Part shown: one piece after another, positions 25,775 through 40,674 of the stretch | Numbering within the stretch: position 1 is the first letter of the stretch | Layout of the letters: each line of letters opens with the position of its first letter | NCBI GenBank assembly: GCA_020724545.1 | Contig: DYGR01000003.1 | Location: 1 to 64,000, forward strand | DNA from: Candidatus Methanoperedens nitratireducens | Lineage (GTDB): Archaea; Halobacteriota; Methanosarcinia; Methanosarcinales; Methanoperedenaceae | Direction of reading: 5' to 3' | DNA length: 64,000 nt | Translations under genes and position numbers: made by a program | The notes under the pieces: generated by a model | Database searches by the model: none | Told to the model about the DNA's origin: nothing | The model's input: the letters and a program-made list of their open reading frames with translations, nothing else

Positions 25775-26766
25775 ACCTGCTGCCTTCTGAGATAAAAAGA
25801 GAGACCCTGATAAAATCAGAGGATACTACTGATGAGAGATACGGTAAAATACCGATAGATCGGCCGATACAGGAATATATTCAGAAAGGGGTGATAAATC
25901 TTGATAAACCTGCAGGGCCGACAAGCCATGAGGTTACATCATGGGTAAGAAAAATTTTAGAAATTGATAAGGCAGGGCACAGCGGCACTCTTGATCCGGG
26001 CGTGACCGGGCTTCTTCCGATTATGCTGGGCGATGCGACAAAAGCTGTGGACGCGCTCCTTACGGCAGGCAAAGAATACATCTGCCTTATGAAACTCCAT
26101 ACCAGAGTACCTGAGAGGGAGATAGAACGAATTTTTAGTGAATTCACAGGCGAGATATACCAGATGCCCTCTATTAAATCAGCAGTAAAACGGGAAACAA
26201 GGATAAGGAACATATATTATCTTGAGTTACTTGAGATCGAGGATAAGAATACCCTTTTTAAGGTCGGGTGCGAGGCCGGGACATATATCAGGAAATTATG
26301 CCATGATATGGGGTTAGCACTCGGTACAGGCGCACATATGCAGGAGTTGCGCCGCACAAAGAGCGGTCCTTTTCGCGAGGATGGAACGATGGTCACACTT
26401 CACGACCTCAAAGACGCGTATGTTGAGTGGAAGGAGAACAACAATGAAGAGTTGTTGAGAAAGGTAATACTTCCAATGGAGATCGGGCTGTCTCACCTTC
26501 CTAAAATAGTGATACGTGATAGCGCGGTTGATGCGGTCTGCCACGGCGCAGGCCTGGCTGCTGCCGGTGTGCTCACACTTGAGAGCGGGATCGAGAGAGG
26601 AGATCCTGTGGCTGTCTTTACACAGAAAGGGGAAGCAGTATCGTTCGGCAGGGCGCAGATGAGATCCATTGAGATCTTAAAAGCAGCTACAGGGATCGTG
26701 GTAAGTACTGACAGGGTGCTTCTGGAGCCGGGGACGTATCCGAAAGGGTGGAAGGCAAAAGAATAA
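25771..26766 (+). CDS. cbf5: tRNA/rRNA pseudouridine synthase Cbf5 (TruB family)
   Basis: It has the TruB catalytic motif GHSGTLDPGVTGLLPI with the nucleophilic Asp, then the GTYIRKLCHDMG region and a C-terminal PUA domain (about residues 250-325). Cbf5 is the catalytic subunit of archaeal H/ACA ribonucleoproteins and also acts on tRNA. The N-terminal archaeal extension is present. In many archaea rpl14e and rpl34e lie between cmk and cbf5; they are missing here. Confidence 0.96.
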   Translation: MNLLPSEIKRETLIKSEDTTDERYGKIPIDRPIQEYIQKGVINLDKPAGPTSHEVTSWVRKILEIDKAGHSGTLDPGVTGLLPIMLGDATKAVDALLTAGKEYICLMKLHTRVPEREIERIFSEFTGEIYQMPSIKSAVKRETRIRNIYYLELLEIEDKNTLFKVGCEAGTYIRKLCHDMGLALGTGAHMQELRRTKSGPFREDGTMVTLHDLKDAYVEWKENNNEELLRKVILPMEIGLSHLPKIVIRDSAVDAVCHGAGLAAAGVLTLESGIERGDPVAVFTQKGEAVSFGRAQMRSIEILKAATGIVVSTDRVLLEPGTYPKGWKAKE

Positions 26767-26800
26767 GGTAACAAACAAATGAAATTAAAGGGGATTAAAC

Positions 26801-28123
26801 ATGGAAAATGCAGAATTTAAAAATTTGAATTTATCAAAAGAAATTGAAATGGCGATTACTGATATGGGTTTTGAAGAGGCCACCCCGATTCAGATCCAGT
26901 CCATTCCCTATATGTTAGAAGGAAGAGATGTGATCGGACAGGCGCAAACAGGTACAGGGAAGACTGCAGCTTTCGGAATTGCAACTTTAGAGAGTATAGA
27001 TCCGGAGAATAAGGGATTACAGGCTGTAATTTTATGTCCCACAAGAGAACTGGCAATTCAGGTAGCAGCAGAAATAAAAAGTATTTCAAAATATAAAAAG
27101 GGCATTGAGATTTTACCCATTTACGGTGGACAGCCTATAGAGCGCCAGATTAAGGCGTTAAAAAAAGGTGTACAGATTATTATTGGCACTCCTGGCCGCG
27201 TCATGGATCACATGGACCGTCGCACTTTGAAAATGGATGGCGTAAAAATAATCATACTGGATGAAGCAGATGAAATGCTGGACATGGGATTTAGAGAAGA
27301 TATTGAAACTATCCTGAGGAAAATCCCGAAGCAAAGACAAACCCTTCTCTTCTCTGCAACTATGCCCAGGGCTATTTTAGATATGACGAAAAAGTATCAG
27401 AACAACCCGCAATTGATAAAACTGGTACATAAGGAGATGACGGTTCCCGAAGTTGAACAATTTTATTTTGAAGTCAAACAGTCGGCAAAACCAGAGGCCC
27501 TGTCCCGTTTGATTGATCTTTATAATCTGAAATCATCACTGGTGTTCTGCAATACAAAAAGACGTGTGGATGAACTGGTAGAAAACCTCAAGACAAGAGG
27601 ATATCTAGCTGATGGACTGCATGGGGATATGGCGCAGAAGCAAAGAGAAAGCGTCATGTCTAGATTCAGAAGAAGGGAGATTGAGGTCTTAGTGGCAACC
27701 GATGTGGCAGCCAGGGGGCTTGATATAGGAGATATAGAGGCTGTGTTCAACTATGATATACCTGCGGATGATGAATATTATGTACACAGGATCGGAAGAA
27801 CAGCCAGGGCAGGAAAAGCCGGGCGTGCATTTGCCTTTGTGACAGGCAAGGAGGTATACAGAGTAAGGCAGATACAGCAATTCACAAAGACCAAGATCAT
27901 AGCCCAGAAAGTTCCTTCTATCAGTGACGTCGAAGAGATCAGGACAAACCTGCTTTTAGAAAAAGTTAAAGGGACTGTTGATGCCGGGCATCTGGGAGAA
28001 TACAGTAATCTGGTTGAAAAACTTATCCAGGAAGATTATACTTATATAGATGTGGCTTCTGCTCTGCTAAAGATGGTGATAGGTGAAGAAGGCAGGGAAG
28101 AGGTCAGGCAAAGAAAAGAGTGA
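26801..28123 (+). CDS. DEAD-box RNA helicase
   Basis: All core motifs are visible: Q motif (TPIQIQSIP), I (AQTGTGKT), Ia (PTRELAIQ), II (DEAD), III (SAT), and VI (HRIGRTARAG). The 440 residues make a short RhlE/DeaD-type enzyme with a small helical tail. Such helicases unwind RNA in ribosome assembly and cold adaptation. The gene follows cbf5 by 34 bases with AAAGGGG upstream. Confidence 0.95.
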   Translation: MENAEFKNLNLSKEIEMAITDMGFEEATPIQIQSIPYMLEGRDVIGQAQTGTGKTAAFGIATLESIDPENKGLQAVILCPTRELAIQVAAEIKSISKYKKGIEILPIYGGQPIERQIKALKKGVQIIIGTPGRVMDHMDRRTLKMDGVKIIILDEADEMLDMGFREDIETILRKIPKQRQTLLFSATMPRAILDMTKKYQNNPQLIKLVHKEMTVPEVEQFYFEVKQSAKPEALSRLIDLYNLKSSLVFCNTKRRVDELVENLKTRGYLADGLHGDMAQKQRESVMSRFRRREIEVLVATDVAARGLDIGDIEAVFNYDIPADDEYYVHRIGRTARAGKAGRAFAFVTGKEVYRVRQIQQFTKTKIIAQKVPSISDVEEIRTNLLLEKVKGTVDAGHLGEYSNLVEKLIQEDYTYIDVASALLKMVIGEEGREEVRQRKE

Positions 28124-28220
28124 TATCTTCGTCTGGTTATATTAACTAACAATAAATTGTAGCCTATACTACAAGTTCAGATTCCAGTATTCTTTTGTAG
28201 GGCATCCATTAATTTAGCAA

Positions 28221-28293
28221 CACCGCAAAGCACGCAAAGAGCGCAAAGCGAGAGGTGATAATGTTCTTTGCGAACTTTGCGCCCTCTGCGGTG
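28221..28293. repeat. Imperfect inverted repeat of GCAAAG type
   Basis: Two 28-base arms (28221-28248 and 28266-28293) match in inverse order at about 22 positions. They are built from ACGCAAAGAGCGCAAAG-like words. Repeats of this kind are scattered between genes in many genomes. It may serve as a terminator for the helicase message or as a dead mobile palindrome. Confidence 0.6.
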
Positions 28294-28409
28294 AGATATC
28301 TATGTTACACAAACGGGTCGTTGGATAATGATTTTAGAACAAAATCTATAGGAGCGAGGGTGATTCTTTCGAAAACTACTTAAGTTCTGTATACATAAAT
28401 GAATTTAGA

Positions 28410-28658
28410 ATGACAAATGAAGTAGCAGGTGCAAAAGAACGATTTAATATTCCTAAGGAAGTAGGTAATAATTTGGTCATGGTCGATAGAAATTTATTGG
28501 AGAGTTTAATTGAGGAAATAGAAGATAAACTAGATGAATTAGAAGCAATTACAGATCCTGAATTCATGAAAGAGGTCAGCATGAGACTCAGTGATATCGA
28601 GAGTGGAAAGATCGCAGGGCTGGATGAGGATAAGATTATTAAACTTCTCAAAGGATGA
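28410..28658 (+). CDS. Antitoxin of a RelBE/ParDE-like pair
   Basis: This 82-residue acidic helical protein is encoded immediately before a RelE-fold toxin, with stop and start overlapping as ATGA. Its middle contains EEIEDKLDELEAITDPEF, and its end GLDEDKIIKLLKG is typical of antitoxins that wrap the toxin. The N-terminus (NIPKEVGNNLVMVDRNLLE) may bind DNA. The family name is not certain. Confidence 0.8.
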   Translation: MTNEVAGAKERFNIPKEVGNNLVMVDRNLLESLIEEIEDKLDELEAITDPEFMKEVSMRLSDIESGKIAGLDEDKIIKLLKG

Positions 28659-28927
28659 ATATGGTATGGGTATTAAAAGCTCATCCACGTTTTGAGAAAG
28701 ATTTAGAGAAGTTAGGCAAAATCGATAAAGATCACCTGTCTGAACTGATTTTAAGAATAAAAGAGGACCCATATAGATTTAAACCTCTGAGAGGTTTGCC
28801 AGGGTGTTTTCGTTTAAGATTCAGCAGCTTCAGGCTTGTCTATGCGCTCAAGGACGAAACGATATGGCTCTTAATCGTGGATAAACGCAAACGAGTCTAT
28901 AGAGAACTGAGAAAAAGATTGAAATAG
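28655..28927 (+). CDS. RelE/ParE-family toxin
   Basis: The fold markers of RelE are present: AHPRFEKDLEKL start, LRGLPGCFRLRFSSFRLVYA core strands, and IVDKRKRVYREL end. Such toxins cleave ribosome-bound mRNA or block gyrase. The overlap with the antitoxin and the intact length (90 residues) indicate a working pair. It opens the defence island. Confidence 0.88.
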   Translation: MNMVWVLKAHPRFEKDLEKLGKIDKDHLSELILRIKEDPYRFKPLRGLPGCFRLRFSSFRLVYALKDETIWLLIVDKRKRVYRELRKRLK

Positions 28928-29173
28928 CTACATAGCTGCCTATTTCATGATATAATCATGAAGCTGAGGCTGATGACACAGAGGTTACAATCAAAAATTT
29001 CTTAACTATGTTTATCATGATAATGTCTATCTGTGGTGAAATATGAGTACATACATTTACAGCATCTGAATTGGCGGATGGTCTCTAAGTCAACAAAATA
29101 TTTTTAAATATTCCAGTAATAAAAGCCATTAGATATGCTTTGCAGGCCTAACAGGGAAAGGTAGAGGCTATTT
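28928..29173. other. Intergenic, promoter of the eroded nuclease gene
   Basis: The 246 bases hold no gene. A TATA-like ATATTTTTAAATATT lies at about 29098-29112, roughly 60 bases before the next ATG. AGGGAAAGGTAG precedes that start. Confidence 0.4.
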
Positions 29174-29888
29174 ATGGAAATTAACATCGAAGAACGACAT
29201 GTTACAATTGAGGCAATAGCAACTCTTGTAAATATAAAGGGAACAATGGCTGAACTTATTCTTAAACCCGCAGGAGTACCACGAGAAATCTATCATCCTT
29301 TACTTCATAAAAGAAACGAAAGTACCGGATATCAACTATCAAAGAGAGAAATTGCCCCATTGATTTTGGAAGCTGTTGAGAGACGGGCAGACGGTTCTAG
29401 AATAATACGTGCAATTATTAAAATAGCGGCAAATTGGAAAGATTTTCATCTTGCACAAAATGAGTATAACGCCAGAGCAACCGTTCAAAAGGCAAGAGAA
29501 ATCTTGAACGTAATTGAAATTATGGAGGCTAAAGAAGCTCAGGAGCAAGAGACCTCAAGAAGACAAGAAATTGAACGCATAAAGCAAGAGAAAGCTTCTC
29601 AATTTACAAAGCAATTATATCTTTTATCAATGATGTTTGATGAATTAGCTAAATTACCGGATGCTCAAAAAAGAGGTTTTCTCTTAGGGCTGGTCTGAAA
29701 ATGTGCCAAAAATTCTTAAACAAAATCCAGATAAGTCAATAATCCTGATGGATGGTTATGATTTGAGAACTGTATTATGTGGATATGTAAATCTTCAGGA
29801 GTTTTTATTTGCCAAAATAGCAAAATTAAATCTGCAGAACGAGCCGTTTTTTAGTATAGCAGATTATCTTAAAGAACGGGAAGGTTAA
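29174..29888 (+). pseudogene. Restriction-endonuclease-like gene with internal deletion
   Basis: The first 174 codons encode the N-terminal part of a PD-(D/E)XK restriction-like family (YQLSKREIAPLILEAVERRA and FHLAQNEYNARATVQKARE), ending RGFLLGLV and a stop. In another frame the sequence continues GWSENVPKILKQNPDKSIIL, MDGYDLRTVLCGYVNLQEFL and ends KEREG, the usual C-terminus of the same family. The nuclease core of roughly 100 residues between them is gone, and the junction around 29690 shifts frame. The gene is therefore dead by deletion. The family assignment rests on recall of sequence patterns. Confidence 0.7.
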
Positions 29889-29991
29889 ATTTGATATAAG
29901 AATCCTAGAGAAGAGGATGTAACATGCAAAAGTTTAAAGAACAATATATTATAGATGAAAAAGGTAAAAAGACGGCTGCAATCCTTCCAAT
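29886..29991 (+). repeat. 106-bp direct repeat, left copy
   Basis: These bases match 37157-37262 at 97 of 106 positions with no gaps. They run from the stop region of the eroded nuclease gene through the ribosome site and first 22 codons of the antitoxin gene. The two copies bracket the antitoxin-Wadjet segment. Confidence 0.92.
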
Positions 29992-30115
29992 CGAAGAGTA
30001 CGAGGAGCTTCTGGAAGACCTGCACGACCTCGCAGTTATTGCTGAACGCAGGGACGAGCCCATGGTAACCTTTGATGAACTTAAGGAAAGATTACGAAAA
30101 GATGGACTCCTATAA
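29924..30115 (+). CDS. Phd/YefM-like antitoxin
   Basis: The 63-residue protein begins MQKFKEQYIIDEKGKKTAAI, then PIEEYEELLEDLHDLAVIA, and ends in a toxin-binding tail (MVTFDELKERLRKDGLL). This is the usual short antitoxin of RelE partners in archaea. Its own toxin gene directly downstream is destroyed. GAGGATG precedes the ATG. Its first 22 codons lie in the 106-bp repeat. Confidence 0.85.
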   Translation: MQKFKEQYIIDEKGKKTAAILPIEEYEELLEDLHDLAVIAERRDEPMVTFDELKERLRKDGLL

Positions 30116-30223
30116 GATTCAATTCAAGCAATCTGCAGAACGGGATTTGCGGAACATTGATCGCCAACAATAATCATATATTACATCCGTCATAGAGAAA
30201 AAGCATATCGTGAACTACAATAA
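30102..30223 (+). pseudogene. RelE toxin remnant
   Basis: A frame opening with ATG at 30102, overlapping the antitoxin end, gives MDSYKIQFKQSAERDLRNID and stops. In the next frame IIIYYIRHREKAYRELQ follows, the last strand and tail of a RelE toxin, ending at 30223. About half of the toxin, including the middle strands, is missing. Confidence 0.75.
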
Positions 30224-30311
30224 AAATAAAATCATGAGCTGATTCCATCTACCAGAGTGAATCAGGCTCTGCTGTACCTGAAGATCCATAATATAGGCGC
30301 GATTACATACA

Positions 30312-30554
30312 ATGGAAAGATTTAGCTTGATCTCCACAATATTAATACTGCTAACAGGATGGCCTGGCATTATTACCTCGTTAGCCGTTTCTGTCGCAGG
30401 AATCATAAGGAAAAATCCAGCCTGGTTAATAGCAGGCGCCGTATTCGCCGTACCCTTCTCCTGGTATCTCAGCCAGACTCCGCTCTTTGAGCATATAGGG
30501 CTTTTCCTGGCAGGCATTGCCGTCTGGTTAGGGGTTGTTGTACTCACGCAGTAG
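30312..30554 (+). CDS. Small membrane protein upstream of jetA
   Basis: Eighty residues with two or three hydrophobic spans (LISTILILLTGWPGIITSLA, AWLIAGAVFAVPF and IGLFLAGIAVWLGVVVL). The stop is only five bases before the jetA ATG, so it is likely cotranscribed with the Wadjet genes. It is not part of the known JetABCD set. It might be a chance neighbour left inside the repeat-bounded segment. Confidence 0.6.
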   Translation: MERFSLISTILILLTGWPGIITSLAVSVAGIIRKNPAWLIAGAVFAVPFSWYLSQTPLFEHIGLFLAGIAVWLGVVVLTQ

Positions 30555-30559
30555 GCAAA

Positions 30560-32044
30560 ATGTATTTAATATGTGAAACTCATTATCCAAAAGAATTGGA
30601 AGAGCTAATGGATCACGACATTATAAAGTATCTAAGAGATCATAATCCCACTGTAAGGCTTTTAAGACGGGATAACGCGCCTCTTATCATTAGTTTTTTA
30701 TTTCAGGAATTTAAAAAGAATAACAGAATTGTCATTTCAAATACCAAGCTTATAACAGGCCTTTCAGATTATTTATATAATTTAAAACAGAGTTATGGAG
30801 AAAATGCTTACCCGGGTACAGCCCAGAATTATCTTGAGAAATGGTCAAATGACGGGTTTTTGAGAAAATATTATACCCCTAATAGTGATGAGCCGGTATT
30901 TGAGCTTACACCTGCAACAGAGAAAGCTTTGGACTGGATAAAAGATTTAGATAAAAAAGAATTTGTAGGCACAGAATCAAGATTGCTTAAGATCTTTGAT
31001 ATTCTAAAAGAGATTGTTTACAAAAGCTCTGATGATCCTGATATAAGGCTGGAGGAACTGGAGAGGCAAAAACAGGACATCGAAAGAGAGATTGAAAAAA
31101 TCCAATCTGGCAATATTGATAGACTAAATGAGACACAGATTAAAGAGCGCTTCTTTGATGTCCATGATACTGCGCGCAAGTTGCTATCTGATTTCAGGCA
31201 AATTGAATACAATTTCCGTGAGCTTGACAGGTCTGTCAGGGAAAAACAGGTAAACAGTAACCTGAAAAAAGGAAAATTATTAGAAGATATTTTTAAAGTT
31301 CAGGATTTGATCTGGGATACTGATCAGGGACGAAGTTTCAAAGCTTTCTGGGAGTTTTTGATGTCCCGCCATAAACAGGATGAACTGAGTGAACTGATTG
31401 AAGCAGTGGTTAATCTGCCTGAGATCCAAAAGGTAAAACAGGATGATTTTATAGAACGAATTAAAGTAAATTTAATAGATGCAGGAGACAAAGTAAATAA
31501 AACCAATCATCACCTGATTGAACAGCTTAGAAAATATTTAGATGATAGAGCTTATCTTGAAAATAAACGCATTGTAGAGATCATTGTGGGAATTAAATCG
31601 CTTGCCATTCAAGTAAAAGATAACCCTCCAAAAAATAGGGATTTCTTATTGCTTGATGATCGTCCCGGGATTGAACTCATAATGGAACGCCCTCTATTCA
31701 ATGTTCGCAAGAATCCTGAGATTAAGAATATGGAGTTTGAAGAAGGCTGTGCTGGTTCTATTGATACAGATGCACTGTATAAACAACTCTATATTGATCA
31801 GGAAGAATTAAAAACTAAAATACGAGAAATGCTTAAATTCAATCCCCAGGTAACATTGAAGCAGATAACAGAAATTTACCCCATAGAAAAAGGTTTATCT
31901 GAGATTATTACTTATTTTAGTATCGCTTCTAAAGACAAAAGATCCTTTATTGATGATACAGTTATAGAAAAAATAACTATATCAAATAAAGAAACAAACA
32001 GATATTTTGAAATACAAATACCTCAGGTTATATTTTGCAAATGA
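30560..32044 (+). CDS. jetA: Wadjet defence protein JetA (DUF3375)
   Basis: JetA is the kleisin-like subunit of Wadjet, an SMC-type complex that recognises and cleaves closed circular plasmid DNA. The N-terminus has the DUF3375 pattern VRLLRRDNAPLIISFLFQEF, the middle is long coiled coil (residues 160-250), and the C-terminus is a winged-helix-like part. Length (494) fits the family. An inner ATG at 30608 is a possible later start. Its TGA overlaps the jetB ATG (ATGA). Confidence 0.92.
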   Translation: MYLICETHYPKELEELMDHDIIKYLRDHNPTVRLLRRDNAPLIISFLFQEFKKNNRIVISNTKLITGLSDYLYNLKQSYGENAYPGTAQNYLEKWSNDGFLRKYYTPNSDEPVFELTPATEKALDWIKDLDKKEFVGTESRLLKIFDILKEIVYKSSDDPDIRLEELERQKQDIEREIEKIQSGNIDRLNETQIKERFFDVHDTARKLLSDFRQIEYNFRELDRSVREKQVNSNLKKGKLLEDIFKVQDLIWDTDQGRSFKAFWEFLMSRHKQDELSELIEAVVNLPEIQKVKQDDFIERIKVNLIDAGDKVNKTNHHLIEQLRKYLDDRAYLENKRIVEIIVGIKSLAIQVKDNPPKNRDFLLLDDRPGIELIMERPLFNVRKNPEIKNMEFEEGCAGSIDTDALYKQLYIDQEELKTKIREMLKFNPQVTLKQITEIYPIEKGLSEIITYFSIASKDKRSFIDDTVIEKITISNKETNRYFEIQIPQVIFCK

Positions 32045-32622
32045 CACAGAATAATATGATACCTCCCTATGCTCCTGTAATCATAAAACTCCTGCAGGGA
32101 GTAATATATAATGATGATAAAGAACTCTGGGATAATCTAGTCAGCTATCAGGTACAGATAAAAGAATATTTTGAATTGATCGGGATAGATGTTCATATCT
32201 ATGAATCAGAAGGGTTTGCTTTTTTGAAACAGAAACAATTTGATGAGGGACAGGAAATTAATTTACCCAATCTTATTGAGAAACGGCAACTGAGCTACCC
32301 TGTAACCCTGCTCTGTGTCCTGCTGGTTGAAAAATTAGTCGAATTTGATGTTACAGGAGGAGATTCTACAAGATTGATAGTTGATAAAGAAGAACTCAAA
32401 GAAATGCTGAGGATATTTCTGCCTGAGCGGACAAATGAAGCAAAGCTCTTTGACAACATTGATGCGCACATTAATAAATTAGTGGATTATGGGTTTTTGA
32501 GGAAACTCAATAATGCTGAGAGCAAATACGAAGTGAAACGGATTTTAAAAGCTAAAATTCCGGCAGATACACTTCAAGAAATAAAAAACAAATTAGAGGA
32601 ATATGCAAAATCTATTGCTTGA
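32041..32622 (+). CDS. jetB: Wadjet defence protein JetB (DUF4194)
   Basis: JetB is the small KITE-like subunit that bridges JetA and JetC. The 193 residues fit DUF4194: YAPVIIKLLQGVIYNDDKEL, then SYPVTLLCVLLVEKLVEF and a winged-helix end (VDYGFLRKLNNAESKYEV). The ATG at 32041 overlaps the jetA stop; a TTG two codons earlier is less likely. The jetC start lies 20 bases inside its end. Confidence 0.92.
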   Translation: MTQNNMIPPYAPVIIKLLQGVIYNDDKELWDNLVSYQVQIKEYFELIGIDVHIYESEGFAFLKQKQFDEGQEINLPNLIEKRQLSYPVTLLCVLLVEKLVEFDVTGGDSTRLIVDKEELKEMLRIFLPERTNEAKLFDNIDAHINKLVDYGFLRKLNNAESKYEVKRILKAKIPADTLQEIKNKLEEYAKSIA

Positions 32623-35600
32623 TCTCGCAGCCGATAATACCCGGACCGGATTTCGCCTGCAGCGCCTGGAAGTGTTGAACTGGGGAACTTTTGACCAGAA
32701 GATATGGAAAATCGAGCCCTGCGGTTACAACTCTTTGCTTACAGGCGACATCGGTTCAGGAAAATCAACATTAGTGGACGCTATTATTACTCTGTTAGTT
32801 CCCTATCAAAAAATTGTTTACAACAAAGCTGCAGGAGCGGAAAGTAAAGAAAGAACCCTTCTCTCCTATGTTAGGGGTGAGTATAAAAATCAAAAAAATG
32901 AATTGGACAATTCCTCCAAACCTGTTTTTTTAAGAGATGAGGGCGATTATTCGGTTCTACTGGCCTGTTTTTATAATGAAGGATACGGTCAAAAAATTAC
33001 ATTAGCACAGGTTTTCTGGAACAGAAACGAAAAAATAGAGAAATTTTTTGTATTATCAGGGCAGGATTTAAATATTATAGAGCATTTCAAAATTAAAAAT
33101 CAAGAAAAAGATATTTTTCCACTTAAAAAACGGTTAAAGAATTTTCCTGATACCGAAATTTTTGAAAATTTCAGTGATTACAGTTCTAAATTTCGCAATA
33201 TTTTTGGTATCAAATCTGAAAAGGCACTTGAATTGTTTTATCAAACGGTCTCAATGAAATCGGTCGGTAACCTGACCGAGTTCGTGCGAAACCACATGCT
33301 TGAAAAATCCGATGTAAAAGAAAAAATTGATGAATTAAAAAGAAACTACGAAAATCTCAGAAAATCATACGAAGCAGTTCAAAAAGCCAGAAGACAGTTG
33401 CAGCAACTGCAACCTTTAGTACAGGAAATAGATGAATTTGAAAAAACAAGCATTGAGATCAAGGATTTACAGAATTGTTTAGATTCACTGCCAGTATACT
33501 TTGCTATTCAAAAAACCAGACTTTTACAAAACGAGATTAAATCTCTCAATGAAGAACTGGGAATAATTAACAATCAGATCGAAGAGATCCGAATTGATCT
33601 TCTGCGATTAAGAAATAAGGAATCAGAAGTAAAAGTAGCTATTGATAATAATAAAGAAGGTCAGCGGCTCAAAGAAATTGAAGATGAGATCAAAAGATTT
33701 GAAGAAATCAAGCAGGCCAAATTAAATAAAGAAAATGAGTACTCGAAACTATCGGAATTATTAGGATTTCCAAAAGCAACAGATGATAGAGTATTCTATC
33801 AATCATTCCATCAGGCAATCAATATCCAGGGAAAAATACAGGGTGAAGTATCAGAGCTGATTGAAAACAGAGATAATTTAAAAATCCATCTGAATAAAAT
33901 CAATGAAACTTACAACTTTGATAGAGTAGAATTAGAATCATTAAAGCAAAGAAAGACCCAGATCCCCGAAACAAATCTAAAAATCCGTGAATTGATCCTA
34001 CGAGATCTGATATTGGATGAGGATGAATTACCTTTTATTGGTGAACTCCTTAAAGTAAAAGATAATGAAAAAGTATGGGAAGGTGCTATTGAAAGGGTTC
34101 TACATAATCTCGGATTAAGCGTGCTTGTAGCTGAAGAGCATTACAGGCGAGTAAGTAGTTATGTAGATAAAACAAATCTAAAAGGACGATTAGTATATTT
34201 CAAGGTTCCTGATTCTATCAAATATCGCACACAAAAAGAAATTTTAGAAAATTCCCTGCTCAACAAAATCGAGATCAAATCCGATACACCATTTTACGAC
34301 TGGCTTGAGAATGAATTAACAGAAGGCTTTGATTATAATTGCTGTGAGACCATTGAACAGTTTCAAAGGGAATCAAAAGCTATTACCCGGAATGGACAGA
34401 TCAAGGGCGGAAAAGCCAGGCATGAAAAAGATGACCGCAGGAGTATTTTTGACCGAAAACATTACATTCTGGGCTGGAGCAACCAGGAAAAAATAAAGGC
34501 AATTGAAAAAGAGTTATTAAATCTTGAAAACCAAATAAAAGATGTTAAGACAAAAATAAAATCAGTTGAAAGTCAGCAAAAACAACTGCAAACGAAAGGA
34601 TTTAACCTGCACGACTTCATAAGATTTAAAGACTATGTTGAAATAAACTGGCAAAAAGAAGCTACTGAGATTGAGCGGCTCAAAAAGGAAAAAGAAGAAT
34701 TAGAAAAAAGTTCAGATCAACTTCAGTCCTTAAAAAAGCAACTGGAAACGACTCAAAAAGAAATTAATGATAAGGATAACCGGCAGGGCTTAAAGCAAAG
34801 GGATAAGGGGAAAATTGAAACCACTATTACGAACTATGAGGAACAGTTAAAAGATTGCAATCAGATCTCAGATAAATTATCAATAGAGGAACAAGAAACT
34901 TTCTTCCCCGGAATTCAAGATTTCTTGCAGGAAAAAGATTTTAAAATTAAAACAATAGACAAATTACAGACTGAAACAAGGAAAAGTATTGAAGATATAA
35001 AGGAAGATAAAAACAAAACAGAGAAAAGATTGCGTGATGGCATTATTTCCAAAATGCAAAAATACAAGAATGAGTATATAGAAGAGACCGTTGAAGTAGA
35101 TGCATCCATAGAGGCTATCCCTGAGTTTCGGCAGTTTCTGAGGAAAATAGAAGAAGAAGATCTACCCAGGCACGAGAAAAAATTTAAGAATTTACTCAAT
35201 GAAGGCACCATCAACGACATTGCTATTTTCAAGAACCAGTTAGAAAGTTTTGCAAAAGATATTGTAGATAAAATAAAACAAATTAATAAATCACTGATAG
35301 AGATAGAATATAACCCTGGAACATACATCGAATTATTGGCAGATAAAGTTCAGGATATTGAAATTAGAGAATTTCAGATCCAATTGCGTAATTGTCTGGA
35401 AAATACCTTTGGTGAAACAAACCTTTATAATGAAGAAAAATTCAACCAGGTAAAATTAATTCTTGATAGATTCAACAGTGGTAGCCATGTTGATATTAAC
35501 TGGACTAATAAAGTGACGGATGTTAGGAACTGGTTTACTTTTACTGCAAGTGAAAAATGGTTAGAGGATAAATCAGAAAAAGAATTTTACAGCGATTCAT

Positions 35601-35968
35601 CAGGTAAATCAGGAGGACAAAAAGAAAAATTAGCTTATACGATTTTAGCCTCTGCACTGGCTTATCAGTTCGGTTTAGAATGGAACCAGACAAAATCAAG
35701 ATCTTTTCGGTTTGTGGTCATCGATGAGGCTTTTGGCCGGGGCTCTGATGAGAGTACCCGTTATGGTCTTGAGCTTTTCAAGAAATTAAACCTGCAGTTG
35801 CTTATCATAACTCCATTGCAAAAAATCAATATAATAGAGAACTACATCCGTTCAGTTCATTTTGTTTTAAATGAGAACGGTAATAATTCACTTGTTAAGA
35901 ACTTGACCATTCAAGAGTACCAGAGAGATAAGGAAAAATATCTTAACAGAGTTGAATCTCAACAATGA
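32603..35968 (+). CDS. jetC: Wadjet SMC-like ATPase JetC
   Basis: It is the SMC-type motor of Wadjet. Walker A is GDIGSGKS (residues 48-55). Two long coiled coils (about 260-480 and 600-800) flank a hinge-like region near 470-540. The ABC signature SGGQ starts at 1003, and Walker B FVVIDEAFGRG has Asp1041-Glu1042. All catalytic parts are intact over 1121 residues. The stop overlaps the jetD ATG (ATGA). Confidence 0.95.
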   Translation: MQNLLLDLAADNTRTGFRLQRLEVLNWGTFDQKIWKIEPCGYNSLLTGDIGSGKSTLVDAIITLLVPYQKIVYNKAAGAESKERTLLSYVRGEYKNQKNELDNSSKPVFLRDEGDYSVLLACFYNEGYGQKITLAQVFWNRNEKIEKFFVLSGQDLNIIEHFKIKNQEKDIFPLKKRLKNFPDTEIFENFSDYSSKFRNIFGIKSEKALELFYQTVSMKSVGNLTEFVRNHMLEKSDVKEKIDELKRNYENLRKSYEAVQKARRQLQQLQPLVQEIDEFEKTSIEIKDLQNCLDSLPVYFAIQKTRLLQNEIKSLNEELGIINNQIEEIRIDLLRLRNKESEVKVAIDNNKEGQRLKEIEDEIKRFEEIKQAKLNKENEYSKLSELLGFPKATDDRVFYQSFHQAINIQGKIQGEVSELIENRDNLKIHLNKINETYNFDRVELESLKQRKTQIPETNLKIRELILRDLILDEDELPFIGELLKVKDNEKVWEGAIERVLHNLGLSVLVAEEHYRRVSSYVDKTNLKGRLVYFKVPDSIKYRTQKEILENSLLNKIEIKSDTPFYDWLENELTEGFDYNCCETIEQFQRESKAITRNGQIKGGKARHEKDDRRSIFDRKHYILGWSNQEKIKAIEKELLNLENQIKDVKTKIKSVESQQKQLQTKGFNLHDFIRFKDYVEINWQKEATEIERLKKEKEELEKSSDQLQSLKKQLETTQKEINDKDNRQGLKQRDKGKIETTITNYEEQLKDCNQISDKLSIEEQETFFPGIQDFLQEKDFKIKTIDKLQTETRKSIEDIKEDKNKTEKRLRDGIISKMQKYKNEYIEETVEVDASIEAIPEFRQFLRKIEEEDLPRHEKKFKNLLNEGTINDIAIFKNQLESFAKDIVDKIKQINKSLIEIEYNPGTYIELLADKVQDIEIREFQIQLRNCLENTFGETNLYNEEKFNQVKLILDRFNSGSHVDINWTNKVTDVRNWFTFTASEKWLEDKSEKEFYSDSSGKSGGQKEKLAYTILASALAYQFGLEWNQTKSRSFRFVVIDEAFGRGSDESTRYGLELFKKLNLQLLIITPLQKINIIENYIRSVHFVLNENGNNSLVKNLTIQEYQRDKEKYLNRVESQQ

Positions 35969-37170
35969 TAACGCCTGAAGAAATAAAAAAGCAAGCCGAA
36001 CGCTGGTACAAGGATTTTTTGATTGCTTCCATAACCGGGGAAAGTTTTTTTCCGAAAGAGATCCGATTTGGCAGGATCAGATCATCCGATACGCTTGAAA
36101 GTTTTTCAAAAATCCATCAGGAGATTCAAAATTTAAGAAAAAAATCGAAGGAACAATCAGGCTACGGCTATCTGATAGAGTTTATCAAAAGAAAAGACCA
36201 AAAAATCGGTGAGCAGTTGTTCCCCAACAGGATTTATTTTGAAGATGAAAGTGATTACCTGAAGTTCATCAAAAAAGAAAAGGAATACCAGGAATTTAAA
36301 CGTGCTGTAGATCAGATCACTAACACTGTTCCAAAGCTTTATGAATGGATTTTGCTAAATCCTCTAAAAGTTATTGAACATCCTGGAAAATGGACAAATT
36401 TGATAAAAGTATGCAATTTCTTCATAACCAATCCACGGCCCAATGTTTATATCCGGGAACTGCCGTTAGAACTTCACACTAAGTTTATAGAAGAAAATAA
36501 ATTCATAGTAAGGCATCTTTTGGATTTTCTTATTGACGAATATATCAACAAAGCAGAAGTTGAATTTGAGAGAAGATTTAACCTCAAGTACAGTGAGCCT
36601 TTAATAAGGTTAAGGATTTTAGATAAAGAGATTGCGAACGAGTATTTTAGTGGATTGACCGATTTAAGCATTCCTCAATCTGATTTTAATATCCTTAGTA
36701 TTAAATGCAAAAAGATTTTTATTCTTGAAAATAAGACCAATTTCTCAAATATATTTAACTTTCTTACGTTGCCCCTCTTAAAAGATTCCATGGCTATTTT
36801 CGGAAAAGGATTTCAGCTCAATTTGTTAAAAGAAGCAAAATGGCTGAGTGATAAACAGATCATTTACTGGGGCGATATAGATACCCATGGTTTTCAGATC
36901 CTCTCACAACTTCGGTCATATTTTCCAAATACTCAATCCTTGATGATGGATTTTGAAACGTTTAATGAGTTTAAAGAATTCGCTGTAACTGGAACTGAAA
37001 CAAATATCAATCAACTTATAAATTTAACAGCAGAAGAAAATCAGCTTTTTGAATACTTGTTAGATCTAAAGGAAAAAAATCGTTTAGAGCAGGAAAAAGT
37101 CAATCATTCATTTGCTTTGAGAAAAATTGAGAAACTGATATATCGAAGCAACAGACTAAATTTGATATAA
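35965..37170 (+). CDS. jetD: Wadjet TOPRIM nuclease JetD
   Basis: JetD cleaves the plasmid DNA recognised by the JetABC motor. It has an N-terminal DUF3322-like region and a C-terminal TOPRIM domain of the DUF2220 type: Glu255 in IFILENKTNF, then Asp304 and Asp306 in YWGDIDTHGF. These acidic residues bind the metal. Its last codons (LNLI and stop) lie within the right copy of the 106-bp repeat. Length (401) is normal, so the gene appears intact. Confidence 0.95.
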   Translation: MITPEEIKKQAERWYKDFLIASITGESFFPKEIRFGRIRSSDTLESFSKIHQEIQNLRKKSKEQSGYGYLIEFIKRKDQKIGEQLFPNRIYFEDESDYLKFIKKEKEYQEFKRAVDQITNTVPKLYEWILLNPLKVIEHPGKWTNLIKVCNFFITNPRPNVYIRELPLELHTKFIEENKFIVRHLLDFLIDEYINKAEVEFERRFNLKYSEPLIRLRILDKEIANEYFSGLTDLSIPQSDFNILSIKCKKIFILENKTNFSNIFNFLTLPLLKDSMAIFGKGFQLNLLKEAKWLSDKQIIYWGDIDTHGFQILSQLRSYFPNTQSLMMDFETFNEFKEFAVTGTETNINQLINLTAEENQLFEYLLDLKEKNRLEQEKVNHSFALRKIEKLIYRSNRLNLI

Positions 37171-37262
37171 GAATATTAGAGAAGAGGATATAACATGAAA
37201 AAGTTTAAGGGACAATATATTATAGATGAAAAAGGTCATAAGATGGCTGCAATCCTTCCAAT
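37157..37262 (+). repeat. 106-bp direct repeat, right copy
   Basis: It matches 29886-29991 at 97 of 106 positions. It covers the last codons of jetD, a ribosome site, and a copy of the first 22 antitoxin codons (MKKFKGQYIIDEKGHKMAAI then LPI). Beyond 37262 the similarity ends abruptly inside the next gene. Confidence 0.92.
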
Positions 37263-38313
37263 ATTAAAAGCCGTATTTCTGGCCGCATTTGTTTCTGCGT
37301 TCGTTAATCCTGCTGCAGGTCTTGAGATAGTGGATTTTTTTTCTGATTTTACAAGCAGCGATGTTACTATTAATTCCAGCCAGGATCTCCAGGGAAGAGC
37401 GGTCTTTGAACTTTTTCATGAGGGAAATCTGGTAGAATCACACGATGTGCCTTTTAATATAAAGGCAGGAGAACCAGCAACTAAAGTCATAGTATGGCAG
37501 AAAAAACCCCGGAATGACTACTATACTGCGAAGGTGAGTATATTCGATGATAGCGAACTCCTGGACAGTAAGACCTACCAGGTATCATACGGGACTGTTT
37601 CGCTACCCGGTTTCCATGTTGTGGATTTCTCACCCTCAAACAGCGGAGCGCAGTTATTGCTGCGTCCCTTTAATCCGAGTGTTGCTGATATAAAAATAGA
37701 AATGCTTGATAATAATGATATTGTTTACACAGAGACAAGAAAGGATGTATCTCTCCTGATGAATACAGAGATCAAGACAACATGGCCGTTTCTGCTCGCA
37801 GATGATAAGGAGTATACCGTCAGAGCAAAAATTTTTACTCACAGGCTCTACGCGCCCCCGTTGATCAATACATATATAGCGTATTTTACTGCGGCAGATG
37901 ATGTTGAGATCCTGCGGGACGATGTCGAGGTTGATGAGTACGGGGCGAGCGTGACCATTCGCGGCAAATCCCGTGTGCCGTTTGACGGGGACATTATCGT
38001 GAACGCAAAGAACAGGGCGACAGGGGAGGTTCAAACATTCAATCAACGTATTGAAGAGATTCTTGTCTCAGGAAAGGAAGATACTGCAGGAGTGGTATGG
38101 GGGGGGCTTGCGCCAGGAACATATTATATTGAGATCCTGGCCGTGAATCAGGACAACAGGACACTTGATAGATATGAAACCGTTTTGCGCATTCCCGAAT
38201 ATGCCAGCGCTACAGAGACCCCACCTGCAAAAAGCACACCCGGATTTATAGCGCTCATATCTATATTGATGGTATTAGCAGCATCAAGGCGGTTAAAAAG
38301 AAAAGGTGGATAA
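37195..38313 (+). CDS. Secreted protein with PGF-CTERM-like anchor; antitoxin-derived 5' end
   Basis: The frame begins with 22 codons copied from the antitoxin gene, then runs in frame into a secreted protein. Starting instead at Met17 (37243) gives an excellent signal peptide (MAAILPILKAVFLAAFVSAF, cut after about residue 25). Several beta-sandwich repeats follow. The end is TPGFIALISILMVLAAS with RRLKRK, an archaeosortase-type anchor. It overlaps the ABC permease gene by one base, so it is probably an accessory protein of that exporter. The original start was replaced at the repeat junction. Confidence 0.75.
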   Translation: MKKFKGQYIIDEKGHKMAAILPILKAVFLAAFVSAFVNPAAGLEIVDFFSDFTSSDVTINSSQDLQGRAVFELFHEGNLVESHDVPFNIKAGEPATKVIVWQKKPRNDYYTAKVSIFDDSELLDSKTYQVSYGTVSLPGFHVVDFSPSNSGAQLLLRPFNPSVADIKIEMLDNNDIVYTETRKDVSLLMNTEIKTTWPFLLADDKEYTVRAKIFTHRLYAPPLINTYIAYFTAADDVEILRDDVEVDEYGASVTIRGKSRVPFDGDIIVNAKNRATGEVQTFNQRIEEILVSGKEDTAGVVWGGLAPGTYYIEILAVNQDNRTLDRYETVLRIPEYASATETPPAKSTPGFIALISILMVLAASRRLKRKGG

Positions 38314-39467
38314 TGTTTGATCTCATCCTCAAAAATATCACCCAGAGAAAACTCAGGACCGGATTAACAATATTCGGTATAGCACTGGGCATTTTTGCGG
38401 TTATTGTTATGGGCGGGATGTCGGAGCATTTCAACCTCACTTTTGATCGGTCTATAAGTTTGACCGCGGATAAGATCCGTGTGCTGCCTGAGGGTGGATT
38501 ATTTGGCGCCAGCCTTAATGAATCTAAAGTCAGGGACGTTAAAAGGGTTCCGGGCGTCCTGGATGCATACGGGATATTGCAGGCGCCTCTTGACCCGGAG
38601 AATATCGCATTTTTTGGCGGGAATGTGATCATTGGTATCCCTCCTGAGAAACAGCAGCTTACAATGAAAGATACAGGATTATCCCAGGGCAGGTTCCTGA
38701 CCGCAGGAGATAGTTACAGGGCTGTCATTGGCAGCAGCGTTGCCCGCGAGTTCAATCTTAATGCAGGAGATGAGCTTGAGATAAAAAGTAAACGGGTACA
38801 GCGTACCGCATCCGTAACCCGTGCCAGGAATTTTACTGTTGTGGGTGTTATGGAGTACACTGGTTCTTTTTTTGATAATAGTGTGCTGATACCCCTCAGC
38901 ACGGCTCAGAGATTCTACGGTCGGACAGGTACTGTCTCATTCATATTTGCTGTTCCGGACTCAAGCACAGACACTGAGGACCTTGCAAAAAGGATAGAGC
39001 TGAATGTTGAGAGGGTTATAACCTTTTCACCAGAAGAACTAAGAAGACAGATAGAGCAATCCCTTATCATCTTCAGCCTGATTACCATAAGTGCGGCTGT
39101 GCTTGCGGCTATAATCGGGGGACTTAGCGTTATGAACACAATGCTGATGTCGGTCTCAGAGAGGACAAAGGAGTTCGGGCTTATGAAGGCACTTGGGGCA
39201 GAGACAAAGGATATACTCTTCATAACAGTCGGAGAGGCCGCACTGATGGGAATACTTGGAGGCATCATCGGCATCATCGGGGGCGGAGCCTTTGTATATT
39301 ATTTGAATGATTATCTTGCATCCCGTGGCACTGTTCTTTTTACAATTACACCAAGACTTCTTGTGATCGCTATTGTTTTCGCTATTCTTCTCGGGATACT
39401 ATCAGGTACCTACCCGGCGTACCGGGCAGCGAAAATGAGCCCGATGGAGGCTTTGCGCTATGAGTGA
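38313..39467 (+). CDS. ABC transporter permease, MacB/FtsX type
   Basis: One N-terminal span (LTIFGIALGIFAVIVMGGMS), a large extracellular MacB-PCD domain (residues 45-240), and three C-terminal spans in an FtsX domain ending AAKMSPMEALRYE. This family exports or extracts lipoproteins or peptides. The ATPase gene overlaps its end by eight bases. Confidence 0.93.
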   Translation: MFDLILKNITQRKLRTGLTIFGIALGIFAVIVMGGMSEHFNLTFDRSISLTADKIRVLPEGGLFGASLNESKVRDVKRVPGVLDAYGILQAPLDPENIAFFGGNVIIGIPPEKQQLTMKDTGLSQGRFLTAGDSYRAVIGSSVAREFNLNAGDELEIKSKRVQRTASVTRARNFTVVGVMEYTGSFFDNSVLIPLSTAQRFYGRTGTVSFIFAVPDSSTDTEDLAKRIELNVERVITFSPEELRRQIEQSLIIFSLITISAAVLAAIIGGLSVMNTMLMSVSERTKEFGLMKALGAETKDILFITVGEAALMGILGGIIGIIGGGAFVYYLNDYLASRGTVLFTITPRLLVIAIVFAILLGILSGTYPAYRAAKMSPMEALRYE

Positions 39468-40152
39468 GCCTGTACTCCGTGTCAGAGATCTCTCAAAAAC
39501 GTATATGCAGGGTAAAATCCCGGTACATGCGCTAACCGATGTGAGTTTTGATGTGAGAAAAGGCGAGCTCTTAAGCATAGTTGGACCTTCAGGGAGTGGA
39601 AAGTCCACCCTGCTCTCCATGATAGGACTTCTTGATAAACCCACAGGCGGCAGTGTCTTTATCGATGATACTGAAGTGACAGAAGCAAAGGAGAGCGATG
39701 CCCCAAGGCTGCGCCGCGAAAAGATAGGGTTTGTGTTCCAGCATTTCAACCTTATACCCACACTTTCTGCGCTGGAGAACATTGATATTGCCATGCGCTT
39801 TGCCAGAGTCCCGAAGGATATACGAAGAGAAAGAGCAATAGAACTGCTCGCCCAGATGGGACTTGCTGAGAGAGTAAACCACAGGCCATCAGAGCTATCA
39901 GGAGGAGAGCAGCAGCGTGTGGCCATAGCCAGAGCATTAGCAAACCATCCTGCGATAATCCTTGCAGATGAACCAACCGGAGAAGTGGATACAAAGACAC
40001 GGGATATGATCGTTGGGATCCTGAAAGAACTCAGTGAAAGAGGACAGACCATACTCGTCGTGACGCACGACACAGCCGTATCACAGCAGACAGGGCGGAT
40101 AATTACCATGCGCGATGGAAGGATTGCAAGCGATGAGCAGATTATGGGGTAA
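39460..40152 (+). CDS. ABC transporter ATP-binding protein, LolD/MacB type
   Basis: Walker A GPSGSGKST, signature LSGGEQQRVAIARAL, Walker B IILADEPTGEVD and the H-loop VTHD are all intact in 230 residues. It energises the permease encoded directly upstream. It is the last gene of the surface-protein/permease/ATPase operon and is convergent with the CGGC gene. Confidence 0.96.
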   Translation: MSEPVLRVRDLSKTYMQGKIPVHALTDVSFDVRKGELLSIVGPSGSGKSTLLSMIGLLDKPTGGSVFIDDTEVTEAKESDAPRLRREKIGFVFQHFNLIPTLSALENIDIAMRFARVPKDIRRERAIELLAQMGLAERVNHRPSELSGGEQQRVAIARALANHPAIILADEPTGEVDTKTRDMIVGILKELSERGQTILVVTHDTAVSQQTGRIITMRDGRIASDEQIMG

Positions 40153-40156
40153 CGGC

Positions 40157-40669
40157 TTAATGGTGCGTTCCTTCCACAATCCTCACACCTTTTTTAAGGA
40201 TCATCTGTCTTATCCCATCCAGATGAGGACATTTAGGATAACTCGATTCCATGAGCATACATGAGCTCAGATGGATCACATCCACGCCGTGTCTGAGAAG
40301 GCTGTCCACAAGCCTGTATACCCGCCTGCCAGGGCATCCGCCGCATGTGAAGAAACCTATGATCTCGGCATCAGGGCCGTATTCACTGAAACGTATCTTT
40401 CTTTTATTGAACGCCTTAAAGCATGCCACTCCAGGGCATGTCTCACTTACGATATCACACCTGACAACAGCGATCTTCGTGGTCTTTTCATCTTTTCCCA
40501 TTAAAGCGCCAGCACGTTCTGCCGCTTCCTTCACATCCTCTATGGTCACTGTATTTTTACCTTTTTTCTCTACAGATGTCTCAATACCCATTTTCGCCAT
40601 TTTACGGACGTTTTCTGGTATTTTCTCAAGTTCTTTAGATGCACTGGATTCCCATTCCATTTTTATCAC
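40157..40669 (-). CDS. PCP_red plus CGGC domain protein
   Basis: Residues 4-55 resemble the small PCP_red domain (WESSASKELEKIPENVRKMA). Residues 60-170 are a CGGC domain with Cys-rich motifs: CDIVSETCPGVAC, then FFTCGGCPGRRV and the HLSSCM strand. CGGC proteins are thought to bind metals or act in redox chemistry. An ATG at 40660 (MEWESS) is a likely alternative start. It ends four bases beyond the convergent ABC gene. Confidence 0.85.
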   Translation of the reverse strand: MIKMEWESSASKELEKIPENVRKMAKMGIETSVEKKGKNTVTIEDVKEAAERAGALMGKDEKTTKIAVVRCDIVSETCPGVACFKAFNKRKIRFSEYGPDAEIIGFFTCGGCPGRRVYRLVDSLLRHGVDVIHLSSCMLMESSYPKCPHLDGIRQMILKKGVRIVEGTHH

Positions 40670-40674
40670 TTATG

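Follow-up and report, generated by a model that had tools for sequence, protein, structure and literature searches.

The right copy of a 106-bp repeat beside a Methanoperedens Wadjet operon as a probable rearrangement scar

Wadjet systems cleave small circular DNA, a 7.3-kb circle being such a substrate, and some circular plasmids themselves carry Wadjet operons (PMC10586767). We analyzed a type I Wadjet operon, jetABCD, in a 64,000-nucleotide stretch of contig DYGR01000003.1 from the archaeon Candidatus Methanoperedens nitratireducens (the window; its genome is called G000 here). The operon lies between two direct copies of a 106-bp sequence that derives from the 5′ end of a RelB-like antitoxin gene. 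A sequence-only reading of the window had taken these copies for the bounds of a defense cassette that looked to have arrived or duplicated by recombination. Our comparison with relatives leads to a different conclusion: the right copy is probably the scar of a rearrangement that joined jetD to an ATP-binding cassette (ABC) exporter operon, and not the end of an island.

The locus resembles described type I Wadjet systems in having four genes in order, all best matched by the PADLOC models JetA1, JetB1, JetC1 and JetD1. It differs in being archaeal, in the small membrane-type gene without a family match that precedes the operon and in the fused exporter operon that follows it. It shares an intact antitoxin at the left copy (A) with RelB/RelE modules (PF18506/PF05016), of which complete pairs occur in two other genomes of the genus, G025 and G026 (toxin family assigned in G025); here, however, the toxin is deleted, and the right copy (B) holds only 22 codons, which form the start of another gene. 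The exporter is LolCDE/MacB-like: its permease and ATPase match the LolCE, LolD and MacB models below the curated cut-offs, with MacB_PCD and FtsX domains. Its accessory protein, for which no family match was found, differs from those systems and has an antitoxin-derived N-terminus in the window.

The join between jetD and the exporter operon

The features at the join are the following; G015 is the nearest relative introduced below.

35965..37170, + strand: jetD nuclease gene (PF09983, E = 6.4e-47); DNA similarity to G015 stops at 37140
37157..37262, + strand: right repeat copy (B), with the leader and 22 initial codons of the antitoxin; lies between jetD and the exporter gene
37195..38313, + strand: fusion gene, 372 amino acids (aa), 22–23 antitoxin residues in frame with the ABC exporter accessory protein, native start replaced
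38313..40152, + strand: ABC exporter permease and ATPase genes (MacB_PCD, FtsX, ABC_tran); 37259-40671 is 96% identical to G015 C2

We compared G000 with 30 other genomes of the genus (31 in total), one genome per species, with strain variation unseen. Its nearest relative at the loci compared is G015 (93% identity for the JetD protein, 94-98% for the exporter proteins); a scan of named contigs found the same jet locus as in G015 in NZ_JMIY01000003.1 of Candidatus Methanoperedens nitroreducens. The jetABCD genes of the two genomes are 95.5% identical as DNA over 6.6 kb and have the same left neighbors: window 26748-28239 (DEAD-box gene) and 28238-28974 (ParDE) correspond to G015 C3:43417-45820, and window 30273-37140 (membrane-type gene and jetABCD) to C3:52002-58940. 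The right flank, window 37259-40671, corresponds to C2:376726-373315, on a separate contig from the jet locus. Similarity to G015 in the exporter begins at 37259, within 4 bases of the repeat end at 37262. In G015, jetD is followed by a convergent HxlR gene, and we found no match to the G000-type antitoxin in that genome as DNA or protein. Composition shifts near the right join as well, since GC content runs at 32-39% per 1-kb bin between 28 and 37 kb and rises to 47-48% at 38-40 kb, in the exporter genes.

The sequence-only reading correctly placed the last codons of jetD (four of them) and 22 antitoxin codons in copy B, but the antitoxin reading frame does not stop at the repeat end. It reads on into the exporter accessory gene and yields the 372-aa fusion. 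The accessory gene has lost about 14 first codons at the join; past this point it is 94% identical to its G015 ortholog, whose own start is MREVNMYLNNIKSVLKAIF. The fusion gene follows jetD on the same strand after a 24-nt gap, and its protein retains a hydrophobic signal-like stretch (by eye). This documents a natural fusion in which the leader and first codons of an antitoxin serve as the start of an exporter gene.

The join of jetD, antitoxin start and exporter was found in none of the 30 other genomes, and parts of the query match separately in 27. Out of many exporter matches we compared the 19 best loci, from 19 of these genomes, together with about 1.5 kb of the sequence before each. 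In eight (G015, G009, G025, G030, G026, G006, G014 and G022) the exporter stands behind the gene of a 275-aa iron-sulfur (Fe-S) protein, and in none of the 19 does an antitoxin of this RelB-like family precede it within the 1.5 kb. Genus-wide, antitoxin matches lie on contigs other than those of the fetched exporter loci, copy B excepted. The G015 Fe-S gene has no DNA match in G000, nor any protein match in a search that had no positive control. The absence of the join from 30 genomes, the exporter order in relatives, the native start in G015 and the Fe-S gene not found in G000 make the arrangement in the window, most simply, a derived state. The proposal that an antitoxin gene served as a docking site gains nothing from the 19 loci, and the relatives did not yield the empty site with one repeat copy that it called for.

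We consider it likely that copy B is the scar of this join. The exporter block would have lost its upstream Fe-S neighbor and about 14 first codons in the G000 lineage and would have been joined to DNA ending in jetD and an antitoxin 5′ end. That end may have come from a second RelB/RelE module behind jetD or from a cut-down tandem duplication of a 7.27-kb unit. With the join in frame, the accessory gene of the exporter would now begin with the likely ribosome-binding site, the start codon and the first 22 codons of the antitoxin gene, and transcription might read through from jetABCD into the exporter operon. Two earlier claims carry over into this account, namely that the repeat derives from the antitoxin 5′ end and that the right junction is a recombination point.

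Several observations weigh against the scar. The Fe-S gene was not found within about 1.5 kb upstream in 11 of the 19 exporter loci, so that the ancestral order rests on eight; no locus in G000 holds the missing second half of the copy B antitoxin; G015 is without any copy of this antitoxin, and the source of copy B is traced in neither genome. The 2.9-Mb assembly of G000, in 88 contigs and with 5.44% contamination, would also allow a chimeric contig, one that joins two unlinked stretches at shared antitoxin sequence, and the join does lie at the repeat. The copies differ at 9 of 106 bases, however, and copy B runs on into the exporter gene in frame, the open reading frames (ORFs) being intact. 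The assembly moreover contains no second close exporter copy (the next is 69% identical) and no match to the Fe-S neighbor, and we regard a chimera as very unlikely.

An adaptive capture, in which the antitoxin start was kept since it puts the exporter under Wadjet or antitoxin expression, would suit the in-frame fusion, the shared strand, the 24-nt gap behind jetD and the low ratios of non-synonymous to synonymous substitution rates (dN/dS) of the three exporter genes against G015 (0.158, 0.079 and 0.081). We nevertheless think it improbable: it concerns a single genome, an in-frame join has a chance of one in three, and any effect on expression is read from sequence. The dN/dS values of the exporter and jet genes mostly reflect the history before the join; they indicate that the genes are intact and do not prove use of the fusion. 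A candidate archaeal TATA box in the shared leader was rejected, as its distances to the likely ribosome-binding site were unsuitable (by eye).

The gene order of the window differs from that of G015 elsewhere too, in the parts of two G015 contigs that were compared. G015 is not simply ancestral, because a cbf5 fragment stays on C3 while the full cbf5 is on C2. The fragment (a 155-bp match at L052 3265-3423) precedes the DEAD-box gene, the gene that the full cbf5 adjoins in the window. In G000, only the SAM-hydroxide adenosyltransferase (SAM-HAT) gene from further upstream than the Fe-S gene was found, on C56, and the genes that lie past HxlR in G015 are on C16; we saw nothing in these stretches that links them to jet or the antitoxin. 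A reconstruction by a single inversion or translocation failed, the old upstream Fe-S neighbor of the exporter not being found in G000.

The two repeat copies and the source of copy B

The left copy and the toxin-antitoxin remains that belong to it are the following.

29886..29991, + strand: left repeat copy (A), leader and first 22 codons of the intact antitoxin gene
29924..30115, + strand: RelB-like antitoxin gene, 63 aa, intact (PF18506, E = 1.8e-8)
30102..30224, + strand: remnant of the relE toxin gene, about 149 bp gone at 30169-30171 relative to the intact G025 copy; codons of both ends (first and last) still present

Alignment of the two copies reproduced the coordinates and the match of 97 in 106 bases (8.5% differing) given by the sequence-only reading exactly. 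Searched against the G000 genome as DNA, copy B matches copy A with E = 1.1e-37, and no third copy was found in the assembly at E <= 0.001. Between the nine differences lie exact runs of 18, 0, 13, 7, 10, 1, 25, 1, 4 and 18 bases. Three differences fall in the leader and six in the coding part; since five of these six are in residue-changing codons, copy B looks like a decaying antitoxin remnant.

Antitoxins of the copy A family are present in seven other genomes of the genus, and the G000 protein is 84% identical to those of G025 and G026. We compared both copies with five of the seven, leaving out G028, which is without the antitoxin 5′ part, and G014, which is only 39% identical. Over the 69 coding bases of the repeat, copies A and B agree with each other at 62 and with the five relatives at 61/56, 55/51, 60/57, 56/51 and 50/46 (A/B); copy A is thus the nearer one in all five. 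At copy A itself, the antitoxin is whole and relE is without about 149 bp, so an intact type II pair is not present there.

Copy B could also be what is left of a tandem duplication: the 7.27-kb unit (antitoxin, relE, membrane-type gene and jetABCD) would have been doubled, which put jetD next to the antitoxin leader, and almost all of the second unit would then have been deleted up to the exporter gene. This is one route to the scar, and its odds overlap with those of the scar itself. It would account for copies A and B sharing their first base, to the left of which the sequences are unrelated, and being mutually closest (62/69 vs 46-61/69 to the five relatives), and G000 has another duplicated gene around a defense cassette. 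On the other hand, we found no trace of the remaining second unit (the antitoxin was searched for, and the genome has one jetD), and 8.5% divergence would mean an old event. Antitoxin-type genes behind jetD in three other genomes make a separate downstream copy equally possible. We treat the duplication as a tentative route only. We also asked whether copy B represents the antitoxin-asnB arrangement of relatives with a lost tail; no antitoxin lies within 1.5 kb upstream of asnB in G000 (C12).

In these relatives, the antitoxin lies upstream of asnB in five genomes (G025, G026, G023, G016 and G028), in some cases with relE or the membrane-type gene intervening; we found no relE beside the antitoxin in G016 and G028. 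In G025 and G026 (L036, L035) it is the antitoxin-relE pair that precedes asnB, and in G025 a relative of the small membrane-type gene stands between the pair and asnB. The membrane-type gene itself stands before jetA both in the window and in G015.

The arriving cassette of the sequence-only reading, whose inventory of genes between the repeats was right (antitoxin, wrecked RelE gene, small membrane-type gene and intact jetABCD), would be a circle or segment with these genes that had inserted by homology at an antitoxin gene already present and might later loop out. A unit with a 106-bp terminal repeat is the structure that such an insertion leaves, and G000 contains a cleaner case of the same form, a type I restriction-modification (R-M) cassette between SAM-HAT gene copies on C56. 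In G015, however, jetABCD already stands beside the same left neighbors without this antitoxin, the right flank belongs elsewhere, and all 19 exporter loci of other genomes are without a preceding antitoxin of this family. No integrase or transposase family was found in the 10 proteins scanned (28410-38313), and no tRNA in the window. Direct repeats of at least 45 bp were absent from the five other jetABCD loci of the genus (19-20 kb each); the sequence-only reading had named relatives with jetABCD, the same flanks and no repeat as a refutation, which these loci match only in part, as their flanks are other ones.

Homology as broken as that between copies A and B, which are 8.5% divergent and share no exact run above 25 bp, would be too poor for efficient homologous recombination. 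The 25-bp maximum, together with a 7.3-kb circle being the DNA form that Wadjet cuts (PMC10586767), makes the proposed looping out unlikely; the substrate point is an argument and not a proof, as some circular plasmids carry Wadjet. Insertion as a whole is in our view an unlikely origin. The locus illustrates that an island-like boundary repeat can be the scar of a change in gene order and how strongly the reading depends on one close relative.

The Wadjet operon and its left flank

The remaining features of the operon and its left flank are the following.

26801..28123, + strand: DEAD-box helicase gene (PF00270, E = 1.1e-54); 26748-28239 is 97% identical to G015 C3
28410..28927, + strand: ParDE-type toxin-antitoxin pair (toxin PF05016); 28238-28974 is 98.6% identical to G015
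29174..29888, + strand: two ORFs, of 174 and 61 aa, each in its own frame; neither has a family match or was found in the G015 locus
30312..30554, + strand: small gene of 80 aa, of membrane type by eye; 78 nt deleted in frame compared with G015
30608..32044 (ORF opens at 30560), + strand: jetA (PF11855, E = 2.2e-127; PADLOC JetA1, E = 1.2e-185, from residue 17)
32035..32622, + strand: jetB (PF13835; PADLOC JetB1, E = 1.7e-75)
32603..35968, + strand: jetC, SMC-like ATPase gene (PF13555, PF13558; PADLOC JetC1, E = 0)

The genes jetA to jetD are overlapping ORFs on one strand, and all four families score far above their thresholds, which identifies a predicted type I Wadjet operon. JetC has the AAA_29 and SbcC_Walker_B domains of the ATPase and JetD the JetD_C and DUF3322 domains of the nuclease, without internal stops. 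The jetA start is probably at 30608 rather than at 30560, because the best PADLOC model aligns only from residue 17 on and the G015 ORF opens at the equivalent ATG. The dN/dS values against G015 are 0.096 (jetA), 0.048 (jetB), 0.084 (jetC) and 0.134 (jetD, first 390 codons). As judged from these genes, the system probably works as usual and cuts small circular DNA. G015, G002, G018, G008 and G003 each have the four genes in order, with different surroundings in G002. A literature search found nothing that joins Methanoperedens with Wadjet.

The stretch from ParDE to the membrane-type gene measures 1.3 kb in the window, where it holds the two ORFs without family match, the antitoxin and the relE remnant, and 6.2 kb in G015, where it holds four other genes. 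The two ORFs at 29174..29888 are possibly one broken gene. We found no family match for the small gene at 30312-30554 and no Pfam family match for the 82-aa partner of the ParDE toxin, whose antitoxin label comes from its position. The four-gene unit beside Wadjet in G015 (C3; L043 1105-7057) encodes proteins of 400, 190, 949 and 469 aa. The largest of these is SMC-like (PF02463, with weak PADLOC matches to LmuB and mad3), and the 400-, 190- and 469-aa proteins have no match in Pfam, PADLOC or NCBIfam. From its sequence, the unit is possibly an undescribed SMC-type defense system.

Antitoxin-type genes behind jetD and a second defense cassette

We tallied the neighbors of jetD in 237 genomes of the class, 16 of which have a JetD_C match. 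In 11 the match spans nearly the whole model, six of them in this genus and five in two other genera of family f5; the partial matches (G006, G158, G104, G174 and G058) were left out. The jetABC genes were confirmed for all six loci of the genus, and the five of other genera are defined by the JetD_C match alone. An antitoxin-type gene directly follows jetD at four of the 11 loci, all in this genus (0/5 in the other genera). At these four of the six genus loci it lies on the same strand and overlaps jetD or starts within 35 nt: the RelB start in G000, and in G002, G008 and G003 a nucleotidyltransferase with a HepT/HEPN partner, a type that we take to be an antitoxin. G008 and G003 may share descent, which leaves at most three separate cases, and G000 is itself one of the four. 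The frequent adjacency, four of six, is a lead only, and a weaker one; whether Methanoperedens Wadjet operons tend to sit directly before toxin-antitoxin genes will be testable as genomes accumulate. Named genome contigs gave only four JetD loci, and none of 600 pattern matches on viral contigs was confirmed as a JetD relative.

Antitoxins of the copy A family are broken near codon 23-27 and fused in frame in two genomes, with the 5′ part in G000 and the 3′ part in G028. In the G028 gene (contig C300, L041 97-420), which stands before asnB, the antitoxin 3′ part from about codon 27 follows in frame on a 5′ part of unrelated sequence; its break lies near the copy B break point, and it has no Pfam match. 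One might speculate that Wadjet operons of Methanoperedens have repeatedly been joined at their 3′ edge to antitoxin genes, the starts of which would act as break points and as portable expression leaders that bring new operons under defense control, an idea to which we give little credence.

The second defense cassette of G000 lies at C56:30946-42163 (L079 5947-17164). It consists of hsdR, hsdS and two hsdM genes of the type I R-M system and holds a second copy of the hsdR start (126 bp, 77% identical). As at the Wadjet locus, a gene in two direct copies encloses the defense genes. The copies here are SAM-HAT genes, 99.87% identical over 769 bp, as against 92% over 106 bp at the Wadjet locus; the G015 stretches compared have one copy of this gene. 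The Wadjet locus, unlike this one, has its outer flanks in separate places in G015. The C56 cassette is the cleaner case of a defense cassette between gene duplicates.

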